From an uncultured Eubacteriaceae bacterium (GTDB lineage: Bacteria > Bacillota > Clostridia > Lachnospirales > CAG-274): a stretch of DNA of 64,000 nucleotides. How positions within the stretch are numbered: the first letter of the stretch is position 1; each line of letters opens with the position of its first letter. Below the pieces are notes generated by a model. It was not told the origin of the DNA. It ran no database searches and worked only from the letters and a program-made list of their open reading frames with translations. Position numbers and translations under genes: made by a program. The stretch lies in the NCBI GenBank assembly GCA_947086655.1, contig CAMTZM010000005.1:1-64000 (forward strand), read 5' to 3'. This document shows positions 42,303-53,173 of the stretch, piece after piece.

Positions 42303-43076
42303 ATGAAAAAAACATTAAAAGTACTGTTAGTTTTATTTATTACAATACTATCTATAAGTGTTGTATTTGCTCATTCAGGCAGAACTGATTCAAACGGCGG
42401 ACATAAAGATAAAAATAATGTGAGCGGTTTAGGACCTTATCATTATCACTGTGGAGGATATCCGGCTCATTTACATCCAAACGGGGTATGTCCTTATAAA
42501 ACAAATTCAAATTCAGCATCTGGACAAGCTGTATCTGAACCAATAGATGTTAAAACATCTAATCCAGAACCTCCAAAGGTTGAAGAACCGGTAATTCAAA
42601 AACAATATTGTTCTTATACTACGGATAAGGCTTTTGTAAACGGAGAAGGTATACAGCTTTATATATTTAATGGAGAACTTTATGTTAAATGTTCAGATTT
42701 GAATGATTATGGTTTTGATGTTTCATATGATAGTGATATATCAAAAGTAGTAATAAAACGCAATACTGTTAAAGCTATGAACCCGCATGAGGTAATATCA
42801 TATCCAGATGGAAAAGGCGCATATGAAGTTATTAATACGAACATAAAGGTGTATGTTTCAGTAAATGGAGTTATTGAGGAAATACCGAGTTTTAATGGAT
42901 ATGGAAATATGTTTGCTGAATTTAAGTCTATTTTTAAAACAGAGGAATCAGAAGGCATGATTCAATATAAAACTGGTGTTGATATTCATATACTTGGACC
43001 AAATAAAGCAGAAACGATGAATTATTTTAAAGAACACGTTCAAAGTTTAATAGAGAAAGATGTTATTAATTTATAA
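42303..43076 (+). CDS. Secreted YHYH-motif protein
   Basis: This 257-residue protein has a signal peptide (ending VVFAHSG) followed at once by a small His/Cys-rich module: HSGRTDSNGGH, then GPYHYHCGGYPAHLHPNGVCPY. That module occurs in phage and Firmicutes surface proteins and probably binds metal. A Pro/Glu linker follows. The rest (about residues 100-257) resembles a copper-amine-oxidase-N or stalk-like beta domain (AFVNGEGIQLYIFNGELYVKCSDL). I start at ATG 42303 after AGGGGGTG rather than at the GTG within that site. A TGTCATATTGACA palindrome lies at 42211-42223. The function is unknown. Confidence 0.72.
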   Translation: MKKTLKVLLVLFITILSISVVFAHSGRTDSNGGHKDKNNVSGLGPYHYHCGGYPAHLHPNGVCPYKTNSNSASGQAVSEPIDVKTSNPEPPKVEEPVIQKQYCSYTTDKAFVNGEGIQLYIFNGELYVKCSDLNDYGFDVSYDSDISKVVIKRNTVKAMNPHEVISYPDGKGAYEVINTNIKVYVSVNGVIEEIPSFNGYGNMFAEFKSIFKTEESEGMIQYKTGVDIHILGPNKAETMNYFKEHVQSLIEKDVINL

Positions 43077-43125
43077 TTATATAAATAAGTGACGATACAA
43101 AAACTATATATATTATTATAATTTT

Positions 43126-43167
43126 AAAGCTTCTTACATATATCTAATATATGGAAGGAGCTTTTTT
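43126..43167 (+). terminator. Terminator-like hairpin that contains the spoVB ribosome binding site
   Basis: A 15-bp stem with two mismatches (43126-43142 with 43148-43164) is followed by TTTTTT and then, 2 nt later, the spoVB ATG. The GGAAGGAG ribosome binding site lies in the 3' arm. It can end transcription of the upstream gene and hide the start of spoVB translation. Confidence 0.6.
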
Positions 43168-43169
43168 AT

Positions 43170-43607
43170 ATGAAATCACAAAGTATAATAAAAGGTGCGC
43201 TTATACTTACTACGGCAAATATAATTACAAGAGTGTTAGGCTTTGTATATCGTGTTTATATGTCAAATGTAATAGGTGCAGAAGGCATGGGTCTTTATCA
43301 GCTTATTGTTCCTATATACATGCTTGTATGGAGCATTTCGTCTTCCGGTTTTACTACAACAATATCAAAATTAACGGCTCAGGAAAACGCTAAAAAAGAA
43401 TATGGAAATATAGGACGAATTTTAAAGCAATCAATGGCAGCGTCATTTTTAATTTCAATTTTTCTTGCGGTAATTGTATACATATTTTCAAATTATATAG
43501 CTGTTTCTATACTTAAAGACAACAGAGCAGAAATACCTTTAAAAGTAATTTCATTGTGTTTTCCTTTTATGGCAGCCGGTACATACATTACTATTTTGGT
43601 AATCTAA
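43170..43607 (+). CDS. spoVB: spoVB, 5' part (gene split by a mobile element)
   Basis: SpoVB is a MurJ-like member of the MOP flippase superfamily needed for spore cortex synthesis. This fragment holds the N-terminal four membrane helices (IIKGALILTTANIITRVLGF, VYMSNVIGAEGMGLYQLI and on). The genuine spoVB sequence runs to Gly137, codon GGT 43578-43580. The last eight codons before the stop (TYITILVI) belong to the inserted element. The remainder of the gene is at 51493-52623. Joined at GGT, the two parts give one continuous 512-residue protein with PFMAAGSCIRGCFLGM across the joint, of normal SpoVB length. In the present arrangement the gene is non-functional. Confidence 0.88.
   Translation: MKSQSIIKGALILTTANIITRVLGFVYRVYMSNVIGAEGMGLYQLIVPIYMLVWSISSSGFTTTISKLTAQENAKKEYGNIGRILKQSMAASFLISIFLAVIVYIFSNYIAVSILKDNRAEIPLKVISLCFPFMAAGTYITILVI
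43578..43602. other. Left junction attL of the spoVB element
   Basis: The core GGT is followed by A and a 21-nt arm (43582-43602, starting CATACATTACTA). Bases to the left are spoVB. The arm contains the last four codons of the recombinase gene, read from the other strand. Confidence 0.85.
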
Positions 43608-45093
43608 ACTTAAAAAAAATAAAGAATTCATTATTAGTCATATCAACCTCAATATTTTCTATAATTTTTTTCATCATTTCATTTGTCCATTGTTCCACAC
43701 TTACATTTAACAATTGTTTAATAGTTGATATTATTTCTTTTTCCTCATCTATATCAACAACTACTTTGTTTAAATCAGACAATGCTTTTTCTCTTTTAAC
43801 GACTAATTTCTTTAAACTTTGTTCTATAGCTTCATTTTGAAGTTTATATTGAATTTCCCCAACTAACCCTTTATTAAAGTTATCTAACAAGGAAATGGAT
43901 AAATTTGTTTTATTCTCTATTTCTTTATCAATTTTTTTAAGAGATAAATTTTCATTTGATTTTTTTATTAATCCTTTTTTTCTTTTATAAAATTCTTTAA
44001 TTTCTGAAAATTTATTTTCACTTACTGTTTTTAATTCCTCTTGTACAGCAGCAATTAGCATAGCTTCCGTAATACTGTTTCTTTTATGTCCACTGCCAGA
44101 TACCCCTTTTTGTTCATAATTAATACAAGAATAACGTGGAGTAAAATTTTCAATCTTTTTTCTTTTAAATGTAAACGCAGCACCACATATTTTACATTTA
44201 ACAATATTTGAAAACAAGTGAATATTGCTATGTCGTGATTTTCTGTTTTCCTTTACATAATTTGAACGCTTTGCAAACATTTCCTGAACAATATGAAAAT
44301 CTTTTTTGTCAATTATTGCTTCGTGGTGATTTTTATGTATCTGCCAATCTTTTTTATCTATATTTTCAAGTTTTTTTATTGTAACGTCTATTGTTTTTCT
44401 TTTCCCTTGTATTAAACTGCCTATGTAAAATTCGTTTGTTAATATATTTCTGATAAGAAATAACGACCATTCACAATTATTTTTTGTCTTGTATCCATTA
44501 TCATTTAAATAATTTGCTATTTTCCTTATTCCGTTGCCTTTCAAATACATATTGTAAATTAATTTAACAATTTTCGCTTCTTCTTCATTAATAATAAAAT
44601 TTTTTATATCTTTTGAATACTCATAGCCGTGCGGAGCGTTTGTACAATGTATCTTTCCCTCTTTATTATAGTATTGCCACGTCATTTTAATACGTTCTGA
44701 TATTTTCCTTGCCTCTTGTTCTGCAAGCCACGCAAATAAGCCGAATTGTCCCTTATCACGTTCACTGTCTAAACCGTCCTCAACAAAAATAATTCTTATA
44801 CCGCTTTCAAATAATTCAGATAAAGCGGTTAATGTTTCCCGCTGATTACGTCCAAAGCGTGAGTAAGATTTAGCAAGAAGCACATCATATCTTTTATTTT
44901 TGCCATCGTCTAAAAGCCTCTGAAACGATAACCTTTTTGTTGTTTCCGTTCCCGAAAAAGCTTCATCACTGTAAATATCATATATTTCATAGTTATATCG
45001 TTTTATGTAATCCTTGAAATATTCTTGTTGATTAATTATGCTTGTTCCCTGTTCATCGGTTGAAACTCGTGCATAAATAGCACATTTTTTCAT
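43591..45093 (-). CDS. Large serine recombinase (integrase/excisionase of the spoVB element)
   Basis: This 500-residue site-specific recombinase has the resolvase catalytic domain with the nucleophile Ser11 in YARVSTDEQ, the arginine motif YSRFGRNQRE and the long helix (LFAWLAEQEARKISERI). The recombinase domain (HGYEY..IVKLIYNMYLKGNGIRKIANYLN) follows, then a zinc-ribbon region (CKICGAAF ... YSCINYEQ) and a C-terminal coiled coil (about residues 360-460). This is the standard architecture of phage and skin-element integrases. It ends TAG at 43591-43593, inside the att arm. AGGAGG precedes its ATG. It is probably co-transcribed with the small gene 24 nt upstream. Confidence 0.95.
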   Translation of the reverse strand: MKKCAIYARVSTDEQGTSIINQQEYFKDYIKRYNYEIYDIYSDEAFSGTETTKRLSFQRLLDDGKNKRYDVLLAKSYSRFGRNQRETLTALSELFESGIRIIFVEDGLDSERDKGQFGLFAWLAEQEARKISERIKMTWQYYNKEGKIHCTNAPHGYEYSKDIKNFIINEEEAKIVKLIYNMYLKGNGIRKIANYLNDNGYKTKNNCEWSLFLIRNILTNEFYIGSLIQGKRKTIDVTIKKLENIDKKDWQIHKNHHEAIIDKKDFHIVQEMFAKRSNYVKENRKSRHSNIHLFSNIVKCKICGAAFTFKRKKIENFTPRYSCINYEQKGVSGSGHKRNSITEAMLIAAVQEELKTVSENKFSEIKEFYKRKKGLIKKSNENLSLKKIDKEIENKTNLSISLLDNFNKGLVGEIQYKLQNEAIEQSLKKLVVKREKALSDLNKVVVDIDEEKEIISTIKQLLNVSVEQWTNEMMKKIIENIEVDMTNNEFFIFFKFRLPK

Positions 45094-45117
45094 TTTTTTG
45101 CCTCCTAATTATGATAA

Positions 45118-45339
45118 TTAAATCAATTTTAAATCTATCATTTCCTTGAAAATATCAATAATTTCTTTATTTCCATATTTGTTAAAAAATTTGATTATCT
45201 TTTTTCCCTCTCTCATTACATTAATTTTTATATCATCACTTTTGTATATTGTTTTAATTTCCATATTCTCTAATTGTGACAATAAAAATTTTTCATTTTT
45301 ATTTATATATTTAATTGCGTCCTGTTCATTATCAAACAC
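45118..45339 (-). CDS. Small protein preceding the recombinase, accessory-factor candidate
   Basis: I do not recognise this protein of about 73 residues. It is charged, Lys/Glu/Ile-rich and largely helical (NEQDAIKYINKNEKFLLSQLENMEIKTIY). The likely start is GTG 45339, 6 nt after AGGTG; a GTG 9 nt upstream is an alternative. Its position just ahead of the large serine recombinase is one where a recombination directionality factor could be encoded, but no motif supports this. A perfect 9-bp inverted repeat covers the leader. Confidence 0.5.
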   Translation of the reverse strand: MFDNEQDAIKYINKNEKFLLSQLENMEIKTIYKSDDIKINVMREGKKIIKFFNKYGNKEIIDIFKEMIDLKLI

Positions 45340-45348
45340 AGAAAACAC

Positions 45349-45370
45349 CTACTATAAACAGTTATAGTAG
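45349..45370 (-). promoter_or_regulatory. Perfect inverted repeat in the leader of the small gene
   Basis: CTACTATAA (45349-45357) and TTATAGTAG (45362-45370) are separated by 4 nt and abut the ribosome binding site of the small gene. It may be an operator or a translation-blocking hairpin governing recombinase expression. Confidence 0.5.
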
Positions 45371-45428
45371 ATGTATATTTGTGACTGCTTGTCTAATATT
45401 CTATTTATTGTATATAGAATTATAAACT

Positions 45429-47516
45429 TTAATTAATAACTTTACTTTTAATACGGCGCTTAATAACAAAATAAGCAAGTATAGTAGTTATTGCGGTTAT
45501 TATCCAACTAATTGGATAGACTGCTAACAGTGTTTCAAGTGTAGGGTTATTTTGATAAATTGAATATATCCATAAAAGTCTTATTCCGCATATACCAAAA
45601 ACTGAGATTACAGCGGGAATAAATGAATAGCCATATCCATACATACTGCTTGAAAAAACTGCTATAACTAAATTAAATACTTCAAATAAAATAATAGTAA
45701 TCAGCCAATTATTATCAATATATCTATAATTTGAAAAAACAAAAAACAGCATACTTAATAAAACGGTAAAAAGTCCGCCTAATATTAAACAATATTTTAT
45801 AATTTTTGAACATCTTTCAAGTTTATTAGCGCCGTAATTTTGACTTATAAACGTTACACTTGCTATGGAAAAAGCACTAATAGCAATGTTTGCGAAAATT
45901 CCAATTTGTTGTATGGAATATAGAGTATACTCTATTGAATCTGAACGATATATTGAATCTGAATATAAATACATGCCCTTTACAATATAAATATCTGAAA
46001 ACCATAAAATAATATTTTGTAATGCTATTGGTATGCCGATTTTAAATATTTTTGATAAAACTTCTTTGTCAACATTAATCAAAATCTTTTTATCAAAACT
46101 AAAATTTCTTAAATTCAGTCTTAAGACTCCCTTTTCATTAACTAAAAAGTATATTATAAGTCCCGCACTGATTATTTGAGAAATTAAGATTGCAAAAGCT
46201 AATCCATAAAATTCCATTTCTAAATCTTCTACAAAAACCCTACCTAAAAGAATATTTATTATTCCCGAAATAAGAATACAAATTAAAGGTTTTTTCGTAT
46301 CACCTTTAATAAACATAATAGCAGCTCCACAATAGTAAAATGCCTGAAAAGGTATAGATAAAAAACAAATATTAAAAAAACTGCCGGCAGATTCAAAATC
46401 TTTATATAATGTTTCTGCTATTTGATTTGAAAAAATCAAACTAATAAAAGTAACAATTATACTGATAATTATTACTAACAAAATAGATGTATGTACCGCT
46501 TTTTTTACTTTTTCTATATTATTCTTACCAATATAATATGAAATTGTTGCATTAGTACCAATGGACAAACCTATAAATAAAGTAACAATTAATCTTATAA
46601 CATTATGATAACCAATTTTGTAAACTAAAAGGGTTGTTCTTAGATAACCATAACCTGCATAATTAAACAGTTGCTGTAATATATCTATTGCTAAAAGCGG
46701 CAATACAAAAATAAGTATTATATTTAATAAAGAACTACTTGTAATTGGATTAAAATAATCTTTATTATGTTTTAATATATTTCCTGTAATATCCAAACCA
46801 CCTGTTTTAGTAATTCTTATAAATACTTTTTCACGTCCTTTAGTTGCGATTAAAATACATATACCTATTATAAACAATGAAACTGCAACAAAAACACTCA
46901 TTTGACTACCCATCATAAATTTCCCAATAATTTTTAATGAAGCATATTCAAACCTATCATTAGCATAAGCAGAAAAATCGTAAGGGTGTTTACTGCCAAT
47001 ATAATACGCAATAAGACTGCCAATATTAGGTATAATGAGTAACCAAAATATATATTTGAAAATACTGGCTTTCTTTAATTCTGTATGCTCATTTGATTGT
47101 GATACTATTTTATAACCATTGTTTATATATTCAGAAATTGTATTTTCGTATTCCTCATCAATACTTAACGATTTAGAAGAAAAAATACCATCATTATTAT
47201 CATTAATATTTTTGTTTATAGTATCTTTTATATACACCCTGTTTGAAGCAGAAAGATTCTTTTTATAAACTTTATCACTAATATTATTATCAATAGAATT
47301 ATTTGCAGTTTGTTGCAATTTATTTAAAAAATCTATACCAATTTTAGTTTTAAATTTTCCAGTAGCTTTACATCTATCAAATAGTTGTTTGGCAATAATG
47401 GGATTATTAATATCAGTTTTAGCCTTTAAGTTTTCAATTAGCTGTAATTCTTGTTTTGCCCTTTTTGCTTCTGATTCACTATCAAATGTAAAACCGCCTA
47501 CATTATAAGTAGCCAT
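45429..47516 (-). CDS. MATE family transporter with an unusual N-terminal extension
   Basis: This 695-residue fusion has three parts. Residues 1-70 form a soluble module (YNVGGFTFDSESEAKRAKQELQL) seen in other Firmicutes proteins. Residues about 119-250 contain EEYENTISEYINNGYKIVSQSN, two membrane helices and FIRITKTGGLDITGN, paralogous to the whole of the next protein (47645-48037). Residues about 265-695 are a twelve-helix MATE antiporter (MOP superfamily) with both repeats. I start at MATYNV (47516) after AGAGGTGA. MATE proteins usually export drugs or metabolites with Na+ or H+. The cargo transporter and the interrupted SpoVB belong to the same superfamily. The function of the fused module is unknown. 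Confidence 0.82.
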   Translation of the reverse strand: MATYNVGGFTFDSESEAKRAKQELQLIENLKAKTDINNPIIAKQLFDRCKATGKFKTKIGIDFLNKLQQTANNSIDNNISDKVYKKNLSASNRVYIKDTINKNINDNNDGIFSSKSLSIDEEYENTISEYINNGYKIVSQSNEHTELKKASIFKYIFWLLIIPNIGSLIAYYIGSKHPYDFSAYANDRFEYASLKIIGKFMMGSQMSVFVAVSLFIIGICILIATKGREKVFIRITKTGGLDITGNILKHNKDYFNPITSSSLLNIILIFVLPLLAIDILQQLFNYAGYGYLRTTLLVYKIGYHNVIRLIVTLFIGLSIGTNATISYYIGKNNIEKVKKAVHTSILLVIIISIIVTFISLIFSNQIAETLYKDFESAGSFFNICFLSIPFQAFYYCGAAIMFIKGDTKKPLICILISGIINILLGRVFVEDLEMEFYGLAFAILISQIISAGLIIYFLVNEKGVLRLNLRNFSFDKKILINVDKEVLSKIFKIGIPIALQNIILWFSDIYIVKGMYLYSDSIYRSDSIEYTLYSIQQIGIFANIAISAFSIASVTFISQNYGANKLERCSKIIKYCLILGGLFTVLLSMLFFVFSNYRYIDNNWLITIILFEVFNLVIAVFSSSMYGYGYSFIPAVISVFGICGIRLLWIYSIYQNNPTLETLLAVYPISWIITAITTILAYFVIKRRIKSKVIN

Positions 47517-47644
47517 ATTTTTTATCACCTCTGCATAAAAAAACATTTTTATGTAACACCAATTTCAAAGAAAAATAATAGAAACAACTTAATTATTTAA
47601 TTCAATATCTTAAAATCAAGTTATTTCTAACTTAAAAAAATTTC

Positions 47645-48037
47645 TTAGAGCCTAGCAAATATAGCAAAAACGATAATAAGTGCAACTACAACAATTATTA
47701 TAGTAACTATAATAGAAATTTGCATTTGCTCTTTGTGCTTTTTGCATTTATCTAGAGTATATCCTGTTATTTGAAGCTGTCCAGTTTTAGTAATGCGTAT
47801 AGTTACCTGATATTCATTTTGTCTTGTATTTACAGCAGTCACCATTGTAGCTACAGTTGTTGGGCTGCCTGCTATTGCTCCGCCTATACCAGAAGCAAGC
47901 CTATCACCTTTTATAGCATCAGACTGTAATATAGTGGCATTTTCCGATTGAGCTACAATTTGGTAACCATTTTCTAAATATAAATTTATTGCTTTTTCAT
48001 ATTCTTCTTCAATATCAAAGTCATCATCTATTTTCAT
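47645..48037 (-). CDS. Small membrane protein, stand-alone version of the module fused to the MATE transporter
   Basis: This 130-residue protein has an N-terminal acidic helix (DIEEEYEKAINLYLENGYQIVAQ), a Gly-rich middle (ASGIGGAIAGSPTT), the strand VTIRITKTGQLQITGYTL and a strongly hydrophobic C-terminal helix. The first and third segments match residues about 119-250 of the neighbouring MATE fusion, so the genes share a duplicated domain. I start at ATG 48037 after AGAGGG. It overlaps the end of a 26-codon frame and is probably coupled to it. The function is unknown. Confidence 0.65.
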   Translation of the reverse strand: MKIDDDFDIEEEYEKAINLYLENGYQIVAQSENATILQSDAIKGDRLASGIGGAIAGSPTTVATMVTAVNTRQNEYQVTIRITKTGQLQITGYTLDKCKKHKEQMQISIIVTIIIVVVALIIVFAIFARL

Positions 48038-48104
48038 TTTTAACCCTCTTTTCATATTTATTAAGAATATTTAATGGTATAGAAGAAAGATTTTCAGCAT
48101 CCAT
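48024..48104 (-). CDS. 26-codon leader or small protein frame
   Basis: A near-ideal GGAGGTGATAAA-ATG begins a frame MDAENLSSIPLN..., ending at TGA 48024-48026, 13 nt inside the next gene. The ribosome binding site is stronger than that of the following gene, whose own AGAGGG lies within this frame. It is a likely translational-coupling leader or a microprotein. It is too short to assign further. Confidence 0.45.
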   Translation of the reverse strand: MDAENLSSIPLNILNKYEKRVKNENR

Positions 48105-48134
48105 TTTATCACCTCCGTATTAAAAAATATTTTT

Positions 48135-48158
48135 TTGTAATAATAAATTTTATTACAA
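48135..48158 (-). promoter_or_regulatory. Inverted repeat upstream of the membrane-module operon
   Basis: TTGTAATAA (48135-48143) and TTATTACAA (48150-48158) are perfect inverted arms 30 nt upstream of the 26-codon frame. This is an operator or hairpin candidate, possibly bound by the divergent Xre regulator. Confidence 0.45.
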
Positions 48159-48434
48159 ATTCTTATCTTTGCAGTATATTGTCAGCAAAATTTTATTTGA
48201 TTTTACAGTATTCAAAGAAAAATTGTAATGTACTATTCGGGATTAATATATAATATTTGGGAATATAAATTTTCTTAAAATCAATACTACAATATCAAAA
48301 AATAAGGATTTTCCGCCATTTCTTAAATAGATTTTATAACACCAAGTATGTAAAACATAATAACATTTTACTGCAAATTTTTAGCTTTGTAGTCTGCTGT
48401 CAACAGAATTCTATTTAATTTTATCATATTCAAA
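48150..48434. repeat. Degenerate direct repeat of about 68 bp, two copies
   Basis: Copy A (48150-48216) and copy B (48366-48434) share strings such as CAAATT-TTA-CTTTG-AGT, TGTCA-CA-AATT-TATTT and ATTTTA-CA-TATTCAAA with scattered substitutions. They lie in the 430-nt gap between divergent genes. They could be ancient duplicates, regulatory sites or recombinase accessory sites. Confidence 0.5.
48289..48342 (+). repeat. Internal copy of the element's right-end sequence
   Basis: The stretch beginning CAATATCAAAAAATAAGGA is closely similar over about 54 nt to 51421-51474, which leads directly into the right att arm. It contains the same TTTC-GCC-TTTCTTAAA core and ends in ACACC versus TTACC. 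Confidence 0.5.
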
Positions 48435-48463
48435 TTATATCGTCAATAAAAATTATACTTTTT

Positions 48464-48480
48464 ATTCATATAATATGAAT
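48464..48480 (+). promoter_or_regulatory. Palindrome overlapping the Xre gene promoter
   Basis: ATTCATA-TAA-TATGAAT is a perfect 7+3+7 palindrome that includes a TATAAT box (48469-48474) about 65 nt upstream of the regulator start. It is a candidate autorepression operator. Confidence 0.5.
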
Positions 48481-48538
48481 TATTATCAATTCAAATAATA
48501 AAAATTTTACGCTATTATTGAATAAAGAGGTGTTTATA

Positions 48539-48907
48539 ATGAATAAAAAGGATAAATTTATTTTTGACAAAGATTTAGTAAAAGACCGTATACGTGAACT
48601 TAGAAAACTTAGAAATTTAACACAGGAACAAGCAAGCGAATTAATAGGTATGAAAGACAGTAATTCGTGGGCGAAGCTGGAAAGTCATAAAGGAACATTA
48701 GCATTATCATTTGATAATTTAATACGTATTGTAAATTTATTTGATATTGATGTAAATTACATTTTTAGAAACAATGAAACAGAGGAACAAGAGAGGGAGC
48801 GGCATACGGAAACTCTTGTTGTTTCTATGATGAAAGATCTTAGTGAAAAAGATAAACAATTAATCTTATCAATGATAAGTCTTTTCAGACAAAATAGAGA
48901 TATATAA
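48539..48907 (+). CDS. Xre-family HTH transcriptional regulator of the element
   Basis: This 122-residue protein has a Cro/CI-type helix-turn-helix at residues about 10-70 (RIRELRKLRNLTQEQASELIGMKDSNSWAKLESHKGTL, then FDNLIRIVNLFDIDVNYIF) and a C-terminal helical tail (LSEKDKQLILSMISLF). I start at ATG 48539 after AAAGAGGTG; a TTG 21 nt upstream is not supported. It is divergent from the membrane-module genes, and palindromes lie on both sides of the gap. It probably represses element functions until induced. Confidence 0.85.
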   Translation: MNKKDKFIFDKDLVKDRIRELRKLRNLTQEQASELIGMKDSNSWAKLESHKGTLALSFDNLIRIVNLFDIDVNYIFRNNETEEQERERHTETLVVSMMKDLSEKDKQLILSMISLFRQNRDI

Positions 48908-49000
48908 AAATTTACCTTCATTTCAGAATTATTAAATAAATGCCTACAAATCTTTTTTGAAATTAAAAAAACTTCTTAATAATTTCCCTAAATTCAAAAT

Positions 49001-49097
49001 TTGAAAAATCAAAAATATAATGTTATAATAAAATGTAAAAACCACAAAAGCCAAAATTTCCTTTTTTACAAATAATAGGAAAATTGGCTTTTTTTAT
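49001..49097 (+). promoter_or_regulatory. Promoter followed by a leader terminator (attenuator candidate) before the helicase-like gene
   Basis: TTGAAA (49001-49006), a 17-nt spacer and TATAAT (49024-49029) form a near-consensus promoter. About 10 nt past the expected start of transcription, a hairpin (AGCCAAAATTTCC ... GGAAAATTGGCT) with a run of seven T ends near 49097, before the AGGAGG of the next gene. Transcription would have to read through it. Confidence 0.6.
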
Positions 49098-49125
49098 TTC
49101 AAAAACAGGAGGAAATATATAAAAA

Positions 49126-50364
49126 ATGAAAGGAATTAAATTTGTAAGTGACATAGTAGATATAACAAAATTTAAAAGCGGTTGTTTAAATCTTATAAAT
49201 TGTCCGACAGGTTCGGGAAAAAGTTATTTTATTGAAAGTAAATTAAGAAAAACTGCAAAACATCAAAATGGAATTTTATATATAATAGATACAAGTATGG
49301 GAAAATCTCAAATTATATCAACTTTTAAAAATGTAAAAAATTACAGTAAATCGTGGAGAGAGGACAAAAATGGAAGCACCACCATATATAATACAGGATG
49401 GGGAAATCAAGAAGACAGTATGACAATAATGACGTATGCACAAGTAGGAGCGGTTTTATATTACGGACACCTTTTTGACTGGAGTAAATTTGAGTATATT
49501 GTTCTTGATGAAATTCATAATTTAATAAATTATCAGAATATACCGTCTTTTGACGAAAACGGCAAAAGTATTAATATTTTAAAGTACGCAAAAGATAAAA
49601 TTGACGATACAGTTAAAAATTATCCTAATGTTAAAATAATCGCTTTAACTGCAACACCAGAAAAAGTATATCAGCACTTCAATAACGTTTTTGATGTAAT
49701 AAGTAAACAAGAATATCTTTCTTTAAGAAATTATGAAAGTTTTAAAGTGGATTATTACAGAGATTATATGAAGGTTATTCAGCAAATACCAAAAGGACAG
49801 AAAGGTATTATTTATTTTACAACAATTTCTAAAATTAAAGAAGTTGAGAAATTTTTATCAAGCCATAATTATAAAACAGGAAGTTTTTGGAGTATTAGTA
49901 ATGAAAAATACCAAATGAGTGATGAACAAAAGTTAGTCAGAAAATATATAATAGAAAATCAGAAAATGCCGAAAGATATTGATATATTATTGATTAACGC
50001 TTCTTGTGAAACAGGTGTAAATATCAAGAATAATGATATAGATTTTATTATAATACATTCAGAAAACAATGACACAATAACACAAGTAAGAGGACGATTA
50101 AGAAATGATTTAAAACAATTATATCTGTATTCAAAATATTTTGTTGATATTCCGAATGAAGTACCTCAGGAATACTTGAATATTAAATTAACTAAGGACG
50201 ATTTAGATATATTATGTGAGGAAAAAATAAGGTTATTAAATAAAAAAGATAAACCTTTAAAATGGAACTCTGTAAGTAAATTTTTATTATATAATGGATA
50301 TGAAATAGAAGAAACAACTTTAAAAGGGCGAAAAGCGAAAGTTATTAGAAAAAGCAATAATTAA
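49126..50364 (+). CDS. SF2 helicase-like ATPase of the element
   Basis: This 412-residue protein has the superfamily 2 helicase motifs: Walker A CPTGSGKSYF (about residues 26-35), motif II DEIH, motif III LTATP, a second RecA-like lobe with IIYFTTIS, motif V INASCETGVNI and motif VI QVRGRLRND. There is no nuclease, primase or zinc domain. Such short DEAD/DEAH-like proteins occur on small integrative elements and phages, where the job is usually unknown. AGGAGG is well placed before the ATG. A possible attenuator precedes it. Confidence 0.78.
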   Translation: MKGIKFVSDIVDITKFKSGCLNLINCPTGSGKSYFIESKLRKTAKHQNGILYIIDTSMGKSQIISTFKNVKNYSKSWREDKNGSTTIYNTGWGNQEDSMTIMTYAQVGAVLYYGHLFDWSKFEYIVLDEIHNLINYQNIPSFDENGKSINILKYAKDKIDDTVKNYPNVKIIALTATPEKVYQHFNNVFDVISKQEYLSLRNYESFKVDYYRDYMKVIQQIPKGQKGIIYFTTISKIKEVEKFLSSHNYKTGSFWSISNEKYQMSDEQKLVRKYIIENQKMPKDIDILLINASCETGVNIKNNDIDFIIIHSENNDTITQVRGRLRNDLKQLYLYSKYFVDIPNEVPQEYLNIKLTKDDLDILCEEKIRLLNKKDKPLKWNSVSKFLLYNGYEIEETTLKGRKAKVIRKSNN

Positions 50365-50629
50365 TATAAAATTCTGCTTTTATAGGAAAAACCTTTAATA
50401 GTATTTTCTTGTAAAAGTAGAATTTTTATTATAGGGGGCGAATAGTTATGTGGAAATTTTTAATTTTATATCTAAAAAAATAGCAATCTGAATAATAATC
50501 GTTCAATTATAGTGTATTTGTCGCAGGCAAGATAACATAATTGTTTAAGTTTTCAATAATCAATAAAATTTATATATTTATGTTATTATGAAATGGCATA
50601 TATTTTTATTGTTCATAAAGGTATACTTA

Positions 50630-50745
50630 TACGAATAACTCAAAAAGCTAAAAATAAATTAATATTATGTATTCGTAAAACTTAAATTTTATTTTACGAA
50701 TATGTTCGTTTTTATATTGATGTTTACGAATATATCTGATATAAT
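50630..50745 (+). promoter_or_regulatory. Four TACGAATA boxes and promoter upstream of the small serine recombinase
   Basis: TACGAATA occurs at 50630-50637, inverted at 50670-50677, and direct at 50695-50702 and 50725-50732. The last lies between -35 TTGATG (50717-50722) and -10 TATAAT (50740-50745). Serine resolvases often bind repeated sites beside their own gene (res) and repress themselves. The rest of 50365-50629 shows only an 11-codon ATG frame at 50448 with a GGGGG upstream, not called as a gene. Confidence 0.5.
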
Positions 50746-50778
50746 TTATTTAGTTAAATTATAAAGGAGTGTTCGCAA

Positions 50779-51387
50779 ATGAATAATAGAATATATGGAT
50801 ATATCAGAGTGTCCGCTAAAGACCAGAACGAGGCAAGACAGATAGAAGCCTTAAAATCAGCGGGAGTTGATGAAAGATTTATATTTCTTGACAAATCAAG
50901 CGGAAAAAATTTTAACCGTAATGAATATCAAGTATTAAAACGAGCGTTGCGTGAACAAGATACATTAATTATAAAATCAATAGACAGGTTAGGCAGAAAT
51001 TACACTGAAATTATTCAAGAATGGAAAGAAATAACAAAGGATATTAAAGCAAATATAAAAGTGCTTGATATGCCATTATTAGATACGTCTGTAAACACTA
51101 AAGATTTAATAGGAACATTCATTGCTGATTTAGTTTTACAAATACTTTCTTATGTGGCAGAGACGGAGAGGCTGAATATAAGACAAAGGCAAGCTGAAGG
51201 AATAAAAATTGCAAAAGAAAACGGAAAACATTTAGGCAGACCTAAAGCGAAATTTCCTTCCGATTTTAATAATGTATATCAATCGTGGAAAGACGGAAAA
51301 TTAACCGCCAAAATTGCTATGGAACAATTAAATTTAAAAAGAACTACTTTTTATAAATTAGTCAATGAATATGAATCTAACAAATAA
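50779..51387 (+). CDS. Small serine recombinase (resolvase/invertase family)
   Basis: This 202-residue recombinase has the catalytic Ser in GYIRVSAKDQNEARQ, the arginine motif SIDRLGRNYTEI, the E-helix (LQILSYVAETERLNIRQRQAEGI) and a C-terminal helix-turn-helix (GRPKAKFP ... TAKIAMEQLNLKRTTFYKLVNEY). These are features of resolvases and DNA invertases rather than integrases. AAGGAG lies before the ATG. Its gene is at the right end of the element, opposite the large recombinase, and repeated boxes upstream may be its binding sites. It may resolve dimers or be a passenger. Confidence 0.9.
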   Translation: MNNRIYGYIRVSAKDQNEARQIEALKSAGVDERFIFLDKSSGKNFNRNEYQVLKRALREQDTLIIKSIDRLGRNYTEIIQEWKEITKDIKANIKVLDMPLLDTSVNTKDLIGTFIADLVLQILSYVAETERLNIRQRQAEGIKIAKENGKHLGRPKAKFPSDFNNVYQSWKDGKLTAKIAMEQLNLKRTTFYKLVNEYESNK

Positions 51388-51420
51388 AAAATATAATATC
51401 AAAAAAATTGTATTTTAATA

Positions 51421-51474
51421 CAATATCAAAAAAGACGGTTTTTCTGCCCTTTCTTAAACAAATCTAATTTTACC
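51421..51474 (+). repeat. Right-end copy of the element's internal repeat
   Basis: This is similar over about 54 nt to 48289-48342 and runs into the right att arm. It may be an accessory binding region for recombination. Confidence 0.45.
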
Positions 51475-51495
51475 AATTTAGTAATGTATGCAGGT
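51470..51495. other. Right junction attR of the spoVB element
   Basis: A 21-nt arm (51470-51490, ending AGTAATGTATG) is followed by CA and the core GGT. Bases to the right are spoVB. The arm is the reverse complement of the left arm (43582-43602) at 19 of 21 positions. Confidence 0.85.
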
Positions 51496-52623
51496 TCATG
51501 TATAAGAGGCTGTTTTTTAGGAATGAGACAGTCCAATGTTCCGGCAGCAAGTCAAGTAATTGAACAGCTTGCAAGAATGAGTGTTATTTTTCTTCTTGCA
51601 AAAAATTTTATTCCCCGTGGAATTGAGGCGGCTGCAACAGCCGCTATATTGGGAACATGTGCCGGAGAAATTATATCGTTTTTATATGTTCTTTTTTCTT
51701 ACAGATTGTTTAAAACAAAAAATCGTTTAAACAAGAAACCTGTAATTTCTCCTATTAAATCTTTAATAATGATAATGACTATGGCATTACCTCTTACAGC
51801 AAACAGAGTTACAGGTTCACTTTTATCAACAGTTGAAAATATAATGATTCCAGAAAAACTTAAAGCTTATGGAATGACATCTGTTGAGGCAATAAGCTCT
51901 TATGGACAGCTTACAGGAATGGCGATGCCGCTTCTTATGTTTCCATCGTCGCTTCTTACGGCTATTTCAGTATCACTTGTTCCGGCTGTATCAGAGGCGA
52001 TAGCTAAACGCAATACGTCTTCAATTTCAGAGACACTTACAAAATCAATGCTTTTTACTCTTATAACAGGTATTGGAACAGCCGGACTTTTTGTAACTTT
52101 TTCTGATGAAATTGGGCTTATGATTTATAATGAAGCTGAAATAGGACCTCTCCTTTTTCAAATGGGTTTTATATGTCCATTTTTATATTGTCAGGTAACG
52201 CTTTCTGGAATATTAAATGGTTTGGGAGAACAAATGTTTATTTTTAGAAATAGTCTTATATCATCTGCTATAAATATATTTTTTATATTTTTTCTTATTC
52301 CCGTTTATGGAATATATGCTTTTACAGTAGGTATGTTTGTAAGTATGATGACAGTTAGTTTACTTGCAATAAGTAAAATTATAACGAAAACAGAACTTAT
52401 GATTGACATAGTTAATTCTGTAATTAAACCAATTATATGTATAAGTGCAAGCTGTCTTACTGCAAGACTTATTTATAATCATCTATCAGTAGGTATACCA
52501 AACAAAATTCAAACAATATTGTCGGTTATACTAACAGGAGTATTTTATTGTATATTATTAATAGAAACAGGCTGTATAACAAAAAAAGATATAAATATGA
52601 TAATAAAAAGAATACCAAAATAA
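51493..52623 (+). CDS. spoVB: spoVB, 3' part (gene split by a mobile element)
   Basis: This is the remaining 376 codons of spoVB, starting with the shared GGT codon. It gives GSCIRGCFLGMRQSNVPAASQVIEQ, then about ten further membrane helices typical of the SpoVB/MurJ-like MOP family. The nearest ATG in frame (51484) is encoded by the element's att arm and has no ribosome binding site, so this part is probably not translated alone. The frame and conserved sequence continue exactly from Gly137 of the 5' part. No internal stops or frameshifts have accumulated, which argues that the gene is still used after excision. Confidence 0.88.
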   Translation, partial: GSCIRGCFLGMRQSNVPAASQVIEQLARMSVIFLLAKNFIPRGIEAAATAAILGTCAGEIISFLYVLFSYRLFKTKNRLNKKPVISPIKSLIMIMTMALPLTANRVTGSLLSTVENIMIPEKLKAYGMTSVEAISSYGQLTGMAMPLLMFPSSLLTAISVSLVPAVSEAIAKRNTSSISETLTKSMLFTLITGIGTAGLFVTFSDEIGLMIYNEAEIGPLLFQMGFICPFLYCQVTLSGILNGLGEQMFIFRNSLISSAINIFFIFFLIPVYGIYAFTVGMFVSMMTVSLLAISKIITKTELMIDIVNSVIKPIICISASCLTARLIYNHLSVGIPNKIQTILSVILTGVFYCILLIETGCITKKDINMIIKRIPK

Positions 52624-52630
52624 TAAAAAT

Positions 52631-52668
52631 TTACCCTTGTTTTAGGTTTTATAAAAAAACAAGGGTAA
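52631..52668 (+). terminator. Terminator between spoVB and rnhA
   Basis: TTACCCTTGTTTT (52631-52643) pairs with AAAACAAGGGTAA (52656-52668). It lies between convergent genes. Confidence 0.75.
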
Positions 52669-52705
52669 TTATATGTTTAATAAGTTATAAAACAAAAAAT
52701 GTATT

Positions 52706-53173
52706 TTATTTATTATAACCGTCATCATCATAAAGTTTTCCGTTTTCAATAGCGGTTCTTGCTAAATAATCGCATCTTTCATTTTCTTTATTGTCAGCGT
52801 GTCCTTTAACCCATATAAAATTAACTTTATGTTTTTTAAGTAATTCAAGTAATTTAATCCATAAATCAACATTTGAGGCATTTTCGGTCTTATTTCTTTT
52901 CCAGTTGTTTTTTTGCCATTTAACTGCCCAGCCTTTTGTTACAGAGTCAACGACATATTTTGAATCGCTGTATAAATTTACTATGCAATTTTCTTTTAAA
53001 GCGTTTAATCCATCTATAACAGCAAGCATTTCCATTCTATTATTAGTTGTTAATTTATAACCTTTAGATATTTCCTTTCTTTTTCCATTATATAATAATA
53101 CAATGCCATATCCTCCGTTTCCGGGGTTTCCAGAACATGCACCGTCTGTATATATATCAACTTCTTTCAACAT
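52706..53173 (-). CDS. rnhA: Ribonuclease HI
   Basis: This 155-residue enzyme cuts the RNA of RNA-DNA hybrids. The four acidic active-site residues are visible: DIYTDGACSGNPG (Asp), NNRMEMLAVI (Glu), YSDSKYVVDS (Asp) and the late Asp in ERCDYLA, with the assisting His in VKGHADN. The basic protrusion (WQKNNWKRNKTE) is present. The start may be ATG 53173 or the adjacent TTG 53170, which has better spacing from AGGTGG. Confidence 0.95.
   Translation of the reverse strand: MLKEVDIYTDGACSGNPGNGGYGIVLLYNGKRKEISKGYKLTTNNRMEMLAVIDGLNALKENCIVNLYSDSKYVVDSVTKGWAVKWQKNNWKRNKTENASNVDLWIKLLELLKKHKVNFIWVKGHADNKENERCDYLARTAIENGKLYDDDGYNK

Follow-up and report, generated by a model that had tools for sequence, protein, structure and literature searches.

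A MATE-type domain fused to two N-terminal modules in a serine recombinase element that interrupts spoVB

Developmentally excised elements and the insertion in spoVB

Developmentally excised elements include skin, SP-beta (spsM), gin (gerE), and yin (yabG) (PMC4191935, PMC5595907, PMC5025042, PMC10747680). The locus described here resembles all four, in that a serine recombinase element splits a sporulation gene at short matching cores and its predicted excision restores the reading frame; it is also like gin in the presence of more than one serine recombinase and in showing, among its observed genes, none for phage structural proteins. The locus differs in its target, spoVB, which has no mention in the gin paper searched, in the size of the element, just 7.9 kb, and in an excision that is predicted from sequence. 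The cargo of the element is a fusion protein that shares with the MATE family the fold family, a length of ~440 aa, and many structural Gly/Pro/Asn positions; in contrast to that family it has two extra N-terminal modules, a lost N-lobe cation site, and changed TM1 and TM7. The ion coupling of MATE proteins is itself debated, and alternative sites may serve some members (PMC7949106; PMC8113278).

The window, that is, the whole analysed stretch of 64,000 nucleotides from an uncultured Eubacteriaceae bacterium, contains spoVB in two parts on the plus strand (5' part, 43170-43579; 3' part, 51495-52623), separated by an element (43578-51494, no strand) that measures 7,915 bp between GG cores and carries the inverted arms TACATACATTACTATTTTGG on the left and CCAATTTAGTAATGTATGCA on the right. 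A large serine recombinase with Resolvase, Recombinase, and zinc ribbon domains occupies the left end (43591-45093, minus strand) and a small serine resolvase/invertase lies near the right end (50779-51387, plus strand); between them are encoded the fusion protein and its neighbour, an RstR/CapH-like HTH repressor divergent from these two genes (48518-48907, plus strand), and a superfamily 2 helicase of the ResIII/DEAD type (49126-50364, plus strand). Both the fusion gene and its neighbour thus sit, as the first-pass annotation had proposed, within the element that splits spoVB. The GC content of the element is 25.7% versus ~30% in the flanks.

When the 7,915 bp are removed at the GG cores, the two spoVB parts join as one complete open frame, and the locus therefore combines a serine recombinase, matching att cores, and a frame restored upon removal, as expected of a skin-like element. 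On this basis spoVB appears to be interrupted in the manner of skin-type genes and not to be dead. The first-pass annotation had described the element as disabling a flippase gene, a wording to be softened since the predicted excision restores spoVB, as in developmentally excised elements. The element itself is an orphan, because its helicase has no close relative in 97 genomes and the best matches of its recombinases in these 97 relatives are just 33-34% identical.

Architecture of the fusion gene and its module-B neighbour

One frame on the minus strand (45429-47516, ~695 aa from the likely ATG) encodes, in this order, module A, a linker, module B including its membrane hairpin, and a MATE-type domain of full length; no paper on such a fusion was found in the literature. 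The longest frame starts at ATG 47546 (45429-47546, minus strand) and comprises 705 aa, and the residue numbers given for the fusion follow this 705-residue frame. The true start is probably ATG 47516 rather than the first ATG, because a strong ribosome-binding site read from the sequence, AGAGGTGAT, lies 7 nt ahead of it and the protein then begins with MATYNVGGFTFD, in the same style as the beginnings of other module-A proteins.

A reading of the 40-54 kb part of the window in all frames showed both the fusion gene and the gene of the 130-aa neighbour to be intact, and the fusion frame has no frameshift or stop. The two genes are known from a single genome only; the observation holds and is a somewhat uncommon one, and its basis is this one genome. 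An assembly error, named in the first-pass annotation as a possible refutation, has left no sign, as the fusion is a single frame and MATE relatives align from ~residue 267 on. Directly downstream of the fusion gene a terminator-like hairpin of 13 pairs with a T-rich tail is found (45345-45374, minus strand), which, as the sole such site in the region, does not exceed chance (1.0 expected there); no Rfam family was detected in 43000-53000.

Module B occupies residues ~127-262 of the fusion (46761-47168, minus strand), where it consists of a helix-strand-strand part, a hydrophobic hairpin, and the IRITKTG strand; the other copy is the stand-alone protein of 130 aa encoded just upstream (47645-48037, minus strand), which has one strong C-terminal membrane helix. 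In pairwise BLASTP the 130-aa protein matched fusion residues 1-267 with 40.8 bits and an E value of 1e-9, and the local score of 94 compares with 31 on average (sd 4.7) and 58 at most over 2,000 shuffles. Taken separately, the helix-strand half (16 of 31 residues identical) and the strand half (14 of 28) each reached a score unmatched in 20,000 shuffles; the two copies are also 74% identical in DNA across 69 bp. The BLASTP and shuffle results rule out chance similarity, the other refutation that had been named, and the module common to the two proteins is real. The shared segment had been placed at residues ~119-250 and described as including membrane helices; it lies instead at ~127-262, and the membrane helices are not the homologous part, because they are placed differently in the two proteins. 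In particular, the middle of module B in the fusion is a hydrophobic hairpin, with helices at ~162-184 and ~216-234 between the two conserved parts, and the middle of the stand-alone protein is a short Gly/Ala-rich stretch, its strong membrane helix being located at C-terminal residues 109-127.

Structure prediction, suggested in the first-pass annotation, was confident for module A (pLDDT 72-88) and of low confidence for the rest; for module B the mean pLDDT values are 61 and 52, and the low-confidence model of the stand-alone protein starts with a helix and two strands and, after a loosely structured middle, continues with two more strands and the C-terminal membrane helix. Foldseek and VIA-align gave no clear structural relative, with a best E value of 0.09 for module B and a best Z of 4.5 for the N-terminal region. 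A profile search for the family of the 130-residue protein, also suggested at that stage, gave no third module-B member in 398 genomes of the phylum, 295 of the order, and 48 of the family, nor in the genome contig collection, viral contigs, phages, and plasmids, at a sensitivity limited by a profile of only two rows; likewise, the survey of transporters on mobile elements yielded no fusion to the module besides this one. Judged from these searches, module B seems to be an orphan of the spoVB element.

Several weaker candidates were rejected. Matches of the 130-aa protein in three genomes (G060, G085, and G106; E ~0.001-0.01) are sugar-binding, PQQ-repeat, or ABC proteins or stop-containing frames, and two apparent second copies of the fusion (G000:C34 and G018:C42; 695-700 aa, E ~1e-5 to 1e-6) are Hsp70-like proteins matched by composition. 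The host genome and another genome of the same family (L014 and L015) contain clusters in which several Hsp70-like genes accompany TPR proteins, and one Hsp70-like protein in these clusters has a von Willebrand-type C-terminal part.

Module A on other membrane proteins

Module A (47295-47516, minus strand) is a cytoplasmic-type N-terminal domain for which a beta hairpin and three helices are predicted. No Pfam or NCBIfam model covers fusion residues 11-85, the FTF... segment that had been regarded in the first-pass annotation as a separate module; this view was borne out, as module A recurs on other proteins. The module-A profile matches at 47298-47516 with an E value of 1e-28, the fusion itself being a row of that profile; independent support comes from the fusion N-terminal region as query against 97 genomes, which retrieved G096:C7 (2.7e-9, 41% identity), and a further locus, L038, was matched at 48% identity. 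The motif extends over the N-terminal 70-75 residues and reads Y-x-(V/I)-G-G-(F/Y)-x-F ... A-K-x-E ... F-x-T-x-x-G. In the collection scan the 7-row module-A alignment was too variable, and a 2-row version gave one more locus.

Among the matches listed in a search with a profile built from a few relatives, module A is present in another family of the order, namely in 116 of the 299 genomes; this family is probably Lachnospiraceae, since the named records with module A are Lachnospira eligens and Eubacterium sp. AF22-9. The other 47 genomes of the host family gave no match to the profile, save a weak one that covers part of the module in a frame of 1266 residues. The fusion is like the Lachnospiraceae-type proteins in its N-terminal 70-75 residues and differs in the partner, which in the proteins fetched from that group is not MATE; among the matches listed there is no second MATE partner.

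Most module-A matches are in proteins of 180-260 residues, with a single membrane helix in those that were read. Of the 20 other module-A loci fetched, 13 have a TLSTC sortase motif at the C-terminus; among the partners checked, a sortase was identified by Pfam in five proteins and assigned to class B by NCBIfam in one. Further partners are one multi-helix GGDEF protein (diguanylate cyclase) and one beta-flower repeat protein, the others among the proteins fetched being single-pass proteins and extracytoplasmic domains. With the exception of the soluble beta-flower protein, module A is N-terminal on membrane-associated proteins throughout the set examined, and its repeated use as the cytoplasmic N-terminal part of membrane proteins with unrelated functions argues for a regulatory or docking domain; this is consistent with the membrane scaffold or regulatory partner put forward in the first-pass annotation. 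A response regulator gene adjoins four of the single-pass proteins read, a pairing that suggests a signalling link. Module A is thus widespread and uncurated, and naming it would aid the annotation of cell-envelope regulation in these bacteria.

Some module-A loci deserve mention in their own right. The pairing of a single-pass module-A protein of 190-200 aa with an adjoining response regulator gene is conserved at L016, L017, L034, and L035. Many class B sortases have module A as cytoplasmic N-terminus, an uncurated combination; they are located at L036:1130-2143, L070, L072, and L075-L080, and also at L082-L084, L087, and L088. In Lachnospira (L018:5570-7191 and L038:4400-6022) a multi-helix module-A protein overlaps a truncated UvrD-like fragment, and in the second of the two strains this protein is divided between two separate frames; the L. 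eligens plasmid match, by its annotation apparently a UvrD fusion, is actually a separate 401-aa frame that overlaps the uvrD-like gene at its end.

The MATE domain and the possible role of the chimera

The MATE domain (45432-46751, minus strand; residues 266-705) is full length and in frame, with a degenerate N-lobe cation site. It matches MatE (PF01554) in Pfam at 2.7e-20, above the curated cut-off, and TIGR00797 over residues 311-661 at 8.9e-29, a score of 100.6 bits that is below the curated cut-off of 147.4; free-standing relatives of ~450 residues align over their full length, the best being L096 of the same family with 36% identity. SpoVB also matches PF01554, and, as the first-pass annotation had indicated, the two proteins have in common their membership of the MatE/MOP superfamily; unlike SpoVB, however, the fusion is much closer to MATE efflux proteins and matches the SpoVB model TIGR02900 weakly (E 7e-5), so that cargo and target are not close paralogues.

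The N-lobe cation site of MATE proteins is made up of a TM1 Asp, an Asn, an Asn/Asp, and a Thr/Ser, and in the fusion only N431 remains of it. At TM1 position 298, which corresponds to PfMATE D41 via the conserved motif LQQLFN-xxD, the Asp found in 35 of the 35 closest relatives is replaced by Gly; Tyr stands at position 405 (Asn in 33 of 35), Gly at 435 (Asn/Asp in 35 of 35), and Ile at 453 (Thr in 35 of 35), and the Asn of position 431, present in all 35, is kept. The last four columns (405, 431, 435, and 453) align without gaps with PfMATE N154, N180, D184, and T202, and four fusion columns are equivalent to the cation site of ClbM, formed by Asp53, Asn195, Asp199, and Ser217 (PMC7949106). 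Of the 59 positions with a conservation of 95% or more the fusion retains 36 (61%), the lowest value of 36 proteins, the next lowest being 73%; the sequence of TM7 is rewritten, with an insertion of six residues, and TM1 is altered too. The helix pattern and most structural Gly/Pro/Asn residues are kept, including N431, G448, and the QN.GA motif.

The loss of these residues is observed, and from it we infer a loss of transport: because three to four invariant or near-invariant cation-site positions are gone, the role of an ordinary ion-coupled exporter is doubtful, and the benefit to the host by transport that had been proposed for the cargo finds no support. The explanation preferred here, still a tentative one, is a chimeric membrane protein in which the MATE part would be repurposed for binding or structure, module A would anchor the protein to a cytoplasmic partner, and the whole would pair with the module-B neighbour. 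The divergent repressor would control the co-expression of the two genes, the two module-B copies may associate in the membrane, and the MATE part, as a ligand-binding or structural membrane domain and no ion-driven exporter, could relay its state to the cytoplasm via modules B and A; alternatively, it might block or titrate another membrane process. If the domain is indeed a pseudo-transporter, bacteria would offer an example of a secondary transporter turned into a receptor or regulator, and one in which the replaced residues are identified. The more specific scenario, that the element turned a MATE exporter into a non-transporting receptor or regulator through loss of the cation site, gain of a cytoplasmic docking module that sortases and signalling proteins of a related family also use, and hetero-oligomer formation with the paralogous mini-protein next to it, is unlikely.

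The strongest competitor is a working MATE-type exporter with altered coupling or substrate, regulated or localised by modules A and B and of benefit to the host or element, for example in the export of a toxic compound. The full-length domain with its model matches, helix pattern, and structural residues speaks for such an exporter, as do the frequency of MATE genes on gut phage and plasmid records and the consideration that a divergent MATE could move something else; nevertheless, the replaced cation-site residues that are invariant in the relatives, the rewritten TM7, and an architecture unique among the MATE genes seen make it rather doubtful, and compared with a beneficial drug transporter, a regulatory or receptor-like protein that forms a pair with the neighbouring paralogue has a somewhat higher likelihood. 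It is improbable that recombination simply fused a MATE gene to the gene of a module-A/B membrane protein and left a drifting, largely non-functional passenger: the occurrence in a single genome, the poor conservation of key residues, and the orphan helicase and distant recombinases of the element fit this account, but a 695-codon frame uninterrupted at 25% GC, with a good ribosome-binding site and normal gene spacing, counts against simple decay, as do the intact neighbouring copy of module B and a divergence that is strong at functional columns and spares many structural ones. Superinfection exclusion, in which the pair at the membrane would protect the element from phages or related elements that enter the cell, under control of the RstR/CapH-like repressor, is suggested by the divergent arrangement of a phage-type repressor and two membrane proteins in a small element devoid of structural genes, and is very unlikely given its purely positional basis, the lack of any PADLOC defence model matching either protein up to E 0.1, and the lack of phage or plasmid relatives of module B.

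Two small frames were observed beside these genes. A frame of 76 aa and 20% GC lies between the large recombinase and the fusion gene (45118-45348, minus strand), with its GTG start inside the terminator-like hairpin and no family match; it is possibly a recombination directionality factor, or not a gene. A 26-codon frame with a strong ribosome-binding site, GGAGGTGATAAAATG (48024-48104, minus strand), overlaps the start of the stand-alone module-B gene in another frame and may represent a leader peptide or a means of translational coupling.
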